The notes under the pieces: model-generated | Database searches by the model: none | What the model saw: the letters and a program-made list of their open reading frames with translations, nothing else | Told to the model about the DNA's origin: nothing | In this document: positions 6,803-8,456 of the stretch, piece after piece | How the letters are laid out: the number at the start of each line of letters is the position of its first letter | Numbering within the stretch: position 1 is the first letter of the stretch | Assembly (NCBI GenBank): GCA_011390775.1 | Contig: JAABRS010000005.1 | Location: 1-37,163, forward strand | Length of the DNA stretch: 37,163 nucleotides | DNA from: Clostridia bacterium | GTDB lineage: Bacteria; Bacillota; Clostridia; Tissierellales; Dethiosulfatibacteraceae | Reading direction: 5' to 3' | Translations under genes and position numbers: made by a program

Positions 6803-6838
6803 AACTCTCTGGAATATACCAGAGAGTTTTGTTTTTTT
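6803..6838 (+). terminator. Rho-independent terminator of hpf
   Basis: A 10-bp perfect stem, AACTCTCTGG (6803-6812) and CCAGAGAGTT (6819-6828), with a 6-base loop, followed by TTGTTTTTTT. Confidence 0.93.
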
Positions 6839-6901
6839 GTGCCGAAAAGTAGGCGGTAACCTTGATAAAAATTGGGCAATGTTGTATTATTAAAAAGAAA
6901 G

Positions 6902-6927
6902 TTGAAACATAGACATTGATATTTCAA
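6902..6927. promoter_or_regulatory. Inverted repeat, possible activator site upstream of the sigma-54 promoter
   Basis: Arms TTGAAACAT (6902-6910) and ATATTTCAA (6919-6927) form a 9-bp inverted repeat with one mismatch, separated by 8 bp and centred about 37 bp before the GG of the -24 box. Sigma-54 promoters need an enhancer-binding protein, and this dyad is the only clear candidate site. The assignment is inference, and the position is closer to the promoter than most enhancers. Confidence 0.35.
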
Positions 6928-6947
6928 TAATTAGAACATAATTGATA

Positions 6948-6965
6948 TTGGCACGATTCATGCAA
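6948..6965 (+). promoter_or_regulatory. Sigma-54 (-24/-12) promoter of kdd-kal
   Basis: TTGGCACG (6948-6955) followed by ATTC and ATGCAA (6960-6965) matches the RpoN consensus TTGGCACG-N4-TTGC with one mismatch. The invariant GG (6950-6951) and GC (6962-6963) are exactly 10 bp apart, as required. It lies 33 bases before the kdd ATG, with AGGAGGT in between. No sigma-A promoter of similar quality is seen in this gap. Confidence 0.85.
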
Positions 6966-6997
6966 TATATCTATATATAAAATCTTAGGAGGTTAAG

Positions 6998-8038
6998 ATG
7001 ATTCATAGAAAAGGAAATCCATATGGAACCCATAGAGTACTTGAACCAAAAGGAGTTTTACCTCAGCCGGCAAATAAGATTAACAACTACATGGAAATAT
7101 ACGATAATGAGATACTCATAGACGTTCAGACATTAAACATAGACTCGGCTAGTTTTACTCAAATAAAGGATCAAGCAAGGGGAGATGAAGAAAAAATAAA
7201 AATAATCATGAAAAGTATAGTAGAAGAAAGAGGAAAGCATCAGAATCCCGTAACTGGTTCGGGAGGAATGCTTATTGGAACGGTAAAAGAGATAGGAGAT
7301 GCTCTTAAAGACAGAGATCTAAAAGTAGGAGATAAGATAGCTACATTAGTTTCATTATCTTTGACTCCATTAAGAATTGATGAAATTCTCGAAATTAGAA
7401 AAGATATAGACCAGGTAGACATTAATGGTCAAGCTATACTTTTTGAAAGTGGGATATATGCAAAACTACCTGAAGATTTACCTGAAAACTTAGCTCTGTC
7501 AGTACTGGACGTAGCAGGAGCACCGGCACAGACAGCAAAGTTGGTAAAACCAGGGGATACCGTTATGGTGATAGGAGGAGCTGGAAAATCTGGAATGCTG
7601 TGTTTGTACGAAGCTAAAAAAAGAGCAGGCATAACAGGAAAAGTTATTTGTATGACTTATTGGGATACTCCTATAGATAAAATAAAAGAATTAGGATTAG
7701 CTGATGAATTTATCGAAGGAGATGCTACGGATGCAGTATCAGTATATGAGGAAGTATCTAAGGTAACAAATGGAAATTTATGCGATAAGGTTATCAACTG
7801 TGTTAATATGCCAAACTGTGAAATGTCTAGCATATTATCATGTAAAGATAATGGTACAGTATATTTTTTCTCCATGGCAACATCTTTTACCAAAGCTGCA
7901 TTAGGCGCCGAGGGAGTAGGTAAAGACGTTAATATGATTATGGGAAATGGATATACAAAAGATCATGCAGCAATATCTCTTCAAATAATGAGAGATAGCA
8001 AAGAATTAAAAGAACTATATCAAGAAATTTATGCCTGA
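6998..8038 (+). CDS. kdd: L-erythro-3,5-diaminohexanoate dehydrogenase
   Basis: A 346-residue protein recognised by its N-terminal [17 protein letters not shown] stretch, typical of Kdd of anaerobic lysine fermentation. It oxidises L-erythro-3,5-diaminohexanoate to 5-amino-3-oxohexanoate with NAD(P)+. An alcohol-dehydrogenase-like fold carries a Rossmann loop GGAGKSG near residue 190. The ATG lies 5 bases after TAGGAGGT. kal follows 25 bases later on the same transcript. The cleavage enzyme gene kce, often found between or beside these two, is absent here, as are kamA, kamD and kamE, so the pathway must be split over several loci. Confidence 0.92.
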
Positions 8039-8063: not shown

Positions 8064-8456
8064 ATGGAAAAAGAATACAAAGCAACATTAAGACTTAGAA
8101 TGAGTTCGCAGGATGCACACTATGGTGGAAATCTTGTTGATGGAGCTAGAATGCTGGGATTATTTGGAGATATAGCAACAGAACTTCTTATACAATGTGA
8201 CGGAGACGAAGGACTTTTTAGATCTTATGATTGTGTAGATTTTTTAGCGCCGGTATATGCTGGAGATTATATAGAAGTTGAAGGTGAAATAACAAAAATA
8301 GGTAATACATCAAGAAAAATGAAATTCACAGCAAAAAAAGTAGTTTTACCAAGACCTGATATAAATCAATCAGCATGTGATATACTAGATGAACCTATTA
8401 TAGTATGTGAAGCTACAGGAACATGTATAGTACCTAAAAACAAGCAGAGAAAATAG
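8064..8456 (+). CDS. kal: 3-aminobutyryl-CoA ammonia lyase
   Basis: A 130-residue hotdog-fold enzyme of the lysine fermentation pathway. It removes ammonia from L-3-aminobutyryl-CoA to give crotonyl-CoA. The [24 protein letters not shown] stretch is characteristic of the family (given here in two parts: [13 protein letters not shown] and [11 protein letters not shown]). The start is ATG 8064, preceded by AAAGGAG at 8050-8056; an in-frame upstream ATG inside kdd lacks a ribosome site. It is the second and last gene of the sigma-54 operon and is closed by a terminator 10 bases after the stop. Confidence 0.92.

Follow-up and report, generated by a model that had tools for sequence, protein, structure and literature searches.

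The conversion of lysine to acetate and butyrate by fermentation belongs to the textbook pathways of clostridia. In a genome assembly of a Clostridia bacterium from the family Dethiosulfatibacteraceae (GCA_011390775.1), two genes assigned to this pathway, kdd and kal, are found on contig JAABRS010000005.1, of which the complete stretch of 37,163 nucleotides (the window) was analysed. As a sequence resembling a -24/-12 promoter precedes kdd, the question arises whether the pair is under the control of sigma-54 and, if so, which enhancer-binding protein (EBP) would be responsible. In our reading, with a probability of about 0.88, positions 6840-6964 represent the complete sigma-54 regulatory region of a two-gene kdd-kal operon, predicted to be activated by an EBP encoded on contig C6 of the same genome (Table 1).

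Both gene identities given in the first-pass annotation hold, as the products score above the respective NCBIfam equivalog cut-offs (281.9 bits versus 200 for the 346-aa kdd product and 194 bits versus 160 for kal). A Shine-Dalgarno sequence, AGGAGG, precedes kdd at 6987-6992. The longest ORF for kal begins at 8031, while ortholog starts match 8064 (MEKEYKATL; MEKEYK in the sister species G001), which is probably the true start and leaves a gap of 25 bp between the two genes. On the upstream side, the intrinsic terminator of hpf, with a stem conserved in the sister species, separates hpf from the kdd promoter.

Table 1. Features of the kdd-kal upstream region and of the putative activator gene; positions refer to the window unless another locus is given.
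Feature	Position	Strand	Basis or remark
Intrinsic terminator of hpf, AACTCTCTGGAATATACCAGAGAGTT then TTGTTTTTTT	6803..6828	+	10 pairs, T-run
UAS1, putative target site of the kam-cluster EBP, TGCCGAAAAGTAGGCG (YGCC-N8-GGCR)	6840..6855	+	
UAS2-like half-site TGATAAAAATTGGGCA	6863..6878	+	23 bp from UAS1, degenerate
Left arm of the dyad, TTGAAACAT	6902..6910	+	not conserved
Promoter-proximal motif ATTGATATTTCAATA, consensus tATTTTTCAAca	6915..6929	+	18 bp before the -24 element
Sigma-54 -24/-12 promoter TTGGCACGATTCATGCA	6948..6964	+	pattern, matrix score, conservation
kdd, L-erythro-3,5-diaminohexanoate dehydrogenase, second genus-specific copy	6998..8038	+	NF052381
kal, 3-aminobutyryl-CoA ammonia lyase	8064..8456	+	NF052388
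UAS-like pair before the EBP gene	L152:1855-1892 (G000:C6) and L185:3826-3863 (G001:C67)		

The proposed promoter reads TTGGCACG-ATTC-ATGC-A, in which GG occupies 6950-6951 and GC 6962-6963; the 10-bp spacing described previously is thus exact, and the distance of 33 bases between position 6964 and the ATG of kdd was likewise reproduced. Relative to the pattern YTGGCACGrNNNTTGCW, there is a single mismatch, ATGC for TTGC in the -12 box, which is identical in the sister species. When scored with a matrix hand-set from the known sigma-54 consensus, the element is the top site of the window, reaching 19.6 with a runner-up at 11.8, while Markov-simulated sequence yields only 0.05 sites with scores of at least 17 per 37 kb. 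The pattern TGGCAYN6TGCA matches 16 times in the genome (2.1 Mb in 269 contigs, 82% complete) versus 0 times for its reversed form, and TTGGCAYN5TTGCA is matched in all 26 genomes examined from the order, where the reversed pattern hardly occurs. The numbers of exact strong sites in G003 and G020, 32 and 18, respectively, are several-fold above those of most other members of the order. The rpoN gene which sigma-54 control requires is present on contig C13 (Sigma54_DBD, E = 6e-63), and about 14-17 genes for sigma-54 activators are encoded in the genome. From the position of the -12 box, transcription is predicted to start at about 6974-6975.

For assessing conservation, genes in relatives from the order and in 80 public loci were assigned by BLAST against those of the cluster, with kamA, kamB, kamC, kamD, and kce checked against NCBIfam; the public loci are best hits among which close relatives are over-represented, and a matrix score of 14 or more was taken as a site in them. 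The usual gene order in Clostridia is EBP, kdd, kamA, kamB, kamC, kamD, kamE, with the EBP gene lying beside kdd in the same or in divergent direction. A sigma-54 site precedes kdd in 44 of the 45 loci with an EBP gene versus 10 of 27 without one in the fetched stretch (Fisher p = 9e-9), and only 8 of 726 control genes from the same loci (1.1%) show such a site. The ten EBP-less loci with a site include solo second copies of kdd and loci truncated at the end of a contig, and the 17 without a site include those from Bacteroidota. All of the first 20 loci retrieved have a -24/-12 site, located upstream either of kdd itself or of a preceding aminotransferase gene. The element is thus kept before kdd across Clostridia, so that two of the refuting conditions named in the first-pass annotation, an absent rpoN and a lack of conservation in related species, do not apply. 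In two relatives, G003 (L056:10484-11815) and G004 (L057:6124-7371), the gene preceding kdd in the sigma-54 operon encodes a HemL-like class III aminotransferase, possibly the acyl-CoA beta-transaminase Kat (PMC3149608); a match to kal was not found in G004.

Further upstream, a dyad emerged that qualifies as an upstream activating site (UAS). Enumeration of dyads in 71 kdd promoters gave TGCC-N8-GGCA as top signal, with 18 occurrences versus 0.08 expected, and YGCC-N8-GGCR is found in 35 of these promoters versus 0.34 expected. The distance of this site to the -24 element, 92 bp in the window, is nearly constant within the genus, whose four kdd promoters show values of 92, 93, 93, and 93 bp. 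Intergenic matches to TGGCAYN6TGCA number 11 in the genome, and YGCC-N8-GGCR accompanies just two of them, those of the kdd promoters. A whole-genome scan for YGCC-N8-GGCR alone gave 12 places versus 9 for the reversed control and was thus no better than the latter, so that the UAS is informative only in combination with a sigma-54 site. When aligning the four promoters of the genus, UAS1, CTTGATAAAAAWTSGGCAAT, TTGATATTKC, and TGGCAYRATWCWTGCAATATA stand out as conserved islands. The second of these, invariant in all four, forms the core of the UAS2-like site; family relatives often show tandem UAS at a spacing of 21-22 bp, and 6863-6878 is probably a second, degenerate copy.

The occurrence of the UAS follows the type of EBP. 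Two classes were distinguished by identity to a family reference, at least 44% for class 1 and 35-42% for class 2. The exact YGCC-N8-GGCR is present in 20 of 29 loci with a class 1 EBP, in contrast to 0 of 11 with class 2 (Fisher p = 1.5e-4), where GAAC-N8-GTTC or a shifted form is found in 9 of the 11. Also the recognition helix differs, being PRQTLQY in class 1 and SQTQ(L/I/F)xRKK in class 2. The pairing is not complete, as about half of the kdd promoters are without the exact site, several of them having one mismatch, and the Sedimentibacter-type promoters L114, L115, L122, and L123 lack it despite a class 1 EBP. Solo second copies of kdd at L263, L264, L267, and L132 have no EBP gene adjacent, yet possess a sigma-54 site and the UAS, which independently supports the view that the UAS and not the proximity of the EBP gene links these promoters. 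At L080, L097, L102, L105, L109, L111, L124, L140, and L143, a class 2 EBP takes the place of the class 1 protein, often with kal beside it.

The first-pass annotation had excluded a competing sigma-A promoter, a claim that turned out not to be demonstrable, as two sigma-A-like sequences agree with the consensus at 10 of 12 positions, TTGATA-N17-TATTAT (6862-6890) and TTGAAA-N18-AATAAT (6902-6931), albeit at chance rate. The first of these overlaps UAS2 and would allow for dual control, in which a sigma-A promoter provides basal or alternative transcription, sigma-54 adds induced transcription, and the EBP might block access to the sigma-A promoter when bound to UAS2. TTGATA is invariant throughout the four promoters of the genus and followed by the -10-like sequences TATTAT, TAATAT, TATGAT, and TATGAT, and a change of sigma factor has a precedent in the kamA gene of Bacillus thuringiensis, for which sigma-54 and then sigma-K control is described (PMC4428206). 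However, 12 such 10/12 matches were found in this AT-rich stretch versus 13.0 expected, TTGAYA is accounted for by UAS2, of which it forms the left arm, and family relatives keep TTGACA without a -10 box. Dual control of kdd-kal is therefore regarded as unlikely, though plausible enough to be kept in mind.

Between UAS2 and the sigma-54 promoter, a 9-bp inverted repeat at 6902-6927 had been suggested as candidate activator site. The repeat is present, but TTGAAACAT and ATATTTCAA (6919-6927), separated by N8, pair at only 8 of 9 positions. Its location 20 bp upstream of the -24 element is nearer to the promoter than the 100-250 bp that the Clostridiales survey gives for most clostridial UAS (PMC6615313). 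Moreover, the dyad was rejected as UAS because its left arm is not conserved, neither in the promoter of the sister ortholog nor in the two paralogous promoters; in its place, we propose the site at 6840-6855. The right arm, on the other hand, is the right half of a separate conserved motif at 6915-6929. When the 66 bp preceding the -24 element were subjected to motif discovery, tATTTTTCAAca emerged with a log-likelihood of 128.6 versus at most 59 in matched control intergenic regions. Scores of 7 or more were reached by 44% of the kdd promoters, whereas the share was 6.9% for the intergenic controls and 6% for other sigma-54 promoters. Within each orientation, its distances to the -24 element cluster at steps of about 10 bp (about 40 kdd promoters). 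The motif is seen in either orientation, and since it accompanies EBPs of both classes, it is not the class-specific enhancer, whereas YGCC-N8-GGCR tracks the EBP class. Despite the enrichment of its right arm, the dyad is thus very unlikely to be the enhancer site itself.

For the preferred reading, in which an EBP acts on the kdd promoter from UAS1 and UAS2, the EBP encoded by L011 on contig C6 is the obvious candidate, being 58-70% identical to the EBPs adjacent to kam clusters, while the next EBP of the genome reaches at most 47%. The protein (L152:1908-3302) consists of PAS, Sigma54_activat (AAA+), and HTH_8 (Fis-type HTH) domains and bears the loop GSFTGA, a variant of the GAFTGA type. 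In most relatives the EBP gene adjoins the kdd-kam cluster; in the genus studied here it is not beside kdd-kal. In the sister species, however, EBP and kam cluster share one contig (G001:C67) in the order murI, DUF1934, EBP, M42 peptidase, AOR and others, kdd, kamA, the EBP gene thus lying only a few genes upstream of the cluster, so that C6 and the cluster-bearing contig C20 are probably adjacent in the present genome. Directly before the EBP gene, a pair of UAS-like palindromes (TGCCGAATTTTAAGCA and TGCCCACATAAAGGCG in the present genome), spaced by about 22 bp, is found in the two species of the genus, which suggests autoregulation; no obvious sigma-54 site was seen at the pair in either species. 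An identity of the activator with PrdR was dropped, as the closest NCBIfam model, NF041552, gave 419.9 bits and thus far less than its cut-off of 795; likewise, an OrdR-like identity was discarded on the basis of sequence identity.

With about 14-17 activator genes at hand, one of them OrdR-like and OrdR governing a related amino-acid pathway, another EBP of the genome could in principle drive the window promoter. Yet, the OrdR-like EBP on C199 has an adjacent ord gene of its own, which is furnished with a separate sigma-54 site (L164), and the UAS is common to the two kdd promoters and absent from the other sigma-54 promoters scanned, making the involvement of a different EBP hardly probable. 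Judged by its gene content, the C199 locus is an ornithine regulon in the same genome, with the OrdR-like EBP (L153) next to a gene probably encoding 2,4-diaminopentanoate dehydrogenase (ord) and an oraE-like mutase gene further on. As far as can be deduced from sequence comparison, control of kdd-kal by sigma-54 is strongly supported by the presence of rpoN, the conservation of the site, and the matched pair of EBP and UAS.

Besides the window copy, a second kdd, 85% identical to it, is part of a regular kam cluster on C20. In the phylogenetic tree, the window kdd and its sister ortholog adjoin the pair of cluster copies from this genus (support values 98/94 and 99/96), though on a longer branch (0.2) than the latter. 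The family relatives G002-G005 show an uninterrupted comF-hpf-DUF5317-spoVB order, and only in the window genus is kdd-kal found between hpf and DUF5317. According to this comparison, the window kdd is a TRANSPLANTED copy, specific to the genus and inserted together with kal where the family relatives have nothing. Apparently, kdd was duplicated along with its promoter and UAS and landed with kal at this position, by which kal would have come under sigma-54 control. Elsewhere in the order, kal is found alone or with a kce-sized neighbor, and no sigma-54 site was detected for it outside two cases of such capture. The second case appears to be a parallel one in Anaerosalibacter (L083/L263), where kal and a kce-sized gene (274 aa) follow an additional kdd that has both a sigma-54 site and the UAS. 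On well-supported branches of the kdd tree, no fewer than three label changes are needed. Solo second copies of kdd with their own sigma-54 sites, several with UAS, occur in several genomes of the Tissierellales (L263, L264, L267, L119, L132, and L270). That the -24/-12 match is only a non-functional remnant on a decaying duplicate, as the longer branch and the presence of another kdd might suggest, is most improbable given that two species, whose proteins differ by 7%, have retained the ORFs and the promoter islands despite divergence of the DNA separating these islands, and that the reading frame of the window kdd is intact with the invariant residues kept.

In the model resulting for the kdd-kal operon, sigma-54 RNA polymerase would bind at 6948-6964 and stay in the closed state. 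The PAS-AAA+-Fis EBP from C6 would act in trans by binding to the YGCC-N8-GGCR site or sites at 6840-6878 and, upon a signal perceived by its PAS domain, loop over about 90 bp and open the promoter. Sites, genes, conservation, EBP-UAS pairing, duplication, and the empty site in relatives are evident from the sequences, while binding, activation, and use in vivo are inferred, as is the effector, for which lysine or an intermediate of the pathway is the probable choice. The kdd-kamA-B-C operon on C20 would be turned on by this EBP as well, and one activator for both operons would mean a single lysine-fermentation regulon. Of the further sites for which the first-pass annotation had suggested a search, the one before the kdd-kamA-B-C operon (L052) was indeed found, but none before kce, so that not every step of the pathway is co-regulated. 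A sigma-A-like sequence, TTGTAA-N17-TATAAT, was read by eye upstream of kce. Neither kce nor other kal genes were retained as regulon members, as they have no sigma-54 site upstream. Genes for kamD and kamE were not found in the 82%-complete assembly, only oraE, and C20 ends inside kamC; this is probably an assembly gap, and the full pathway is consequently not shown in this genome.

Beyond this genome, it is conceivable, at odds somewhat short of even, that lysine fermentation in Clostridia constitutes a conserved sigma-54 regulon with two alternative EBP-UAS pairs, in which duplicated kdd genes have repeatedly served as vehicles of the promoter, in at least two lineages bringing a sigma-54 site and UAS in front of kal(-kce) and subjecting it to lysine-responsive control, and the helically phased tATTTTTCAAca element is bound by a further factor. 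With promoter, specific EBP, and UAS at hand, the control of lysine fermentation becomes directly testable. The second EBP class with its switched recognition helix and UAS can be viewed as a natural experiment in EBP-DNA specificity, and the solo kdd copies illustrate how a pathway gene may join a regulon when its neighbor is duplicated together with the promoter.

Control of amino-acid fermentation by sigma-54 and EBPs is, as such, already known from PrdR, OrdR, and others (PMC6615313, PMC7438776), and the reconstruction of sigma-54 regulons in Clostridiales relied on the same comparative inference as applied here (PMC6615313). Table 1 of that study lists no lysine-fermentation regulon, and the terms 'kam' and 'lys' are absent from its main text. 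Also in the openly accessible literature searched, neither a clostridial sigma-54 control of lysine fermentation nor a named regulator was found. The use of lysine can be deferred; in Clostridium sticklandii, it starts only at the onset of the stationary phase (PMC3091704). PrdR, the activator of proline reductase, resembles the C6 EBP in being its nearest NCBIfam model, but its UAS is described as TGT/ACA repeats (PMC6615313), unlike the YGCC-N8-GGCR found here. The OrdR regulon for ornithine oxidation described for Clostridiales (PMC6615313), with a promoter mapped in C. difficile (PMC7438776), shares with kdd-kam the adjacent EBP, the sigma-54 site, and an aminomutase-based fermentation of a basic amino acid; the EBP, however, is a distinct one, as the OrdR-like protein of the present genome is only 41-46% identical to the kam-cluster EBPs. 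Judged by its published description, the KamR system of B. thuringiensis HD73 is similar in combining a PAS-type EBP (HD73_2539) with a -24/-12 promoter, TTGGCATAACTATTGCT, for controlling the lysine 2,3-aminomutase gene kamA, the sigma-54 unit comprising HD73_2540-2541 (kamA and a hypothetical gene) and later coming under sigma-K control (PMC4428206, citing Zhang et al. 2014). In contrast to KamR, whose host is an aerobic spore-former, the EBP deduced here would govern the clostridial kdd-kam cluster for the conversion of lysine to butyrate and, in addition, a separate kdd-kal operon.
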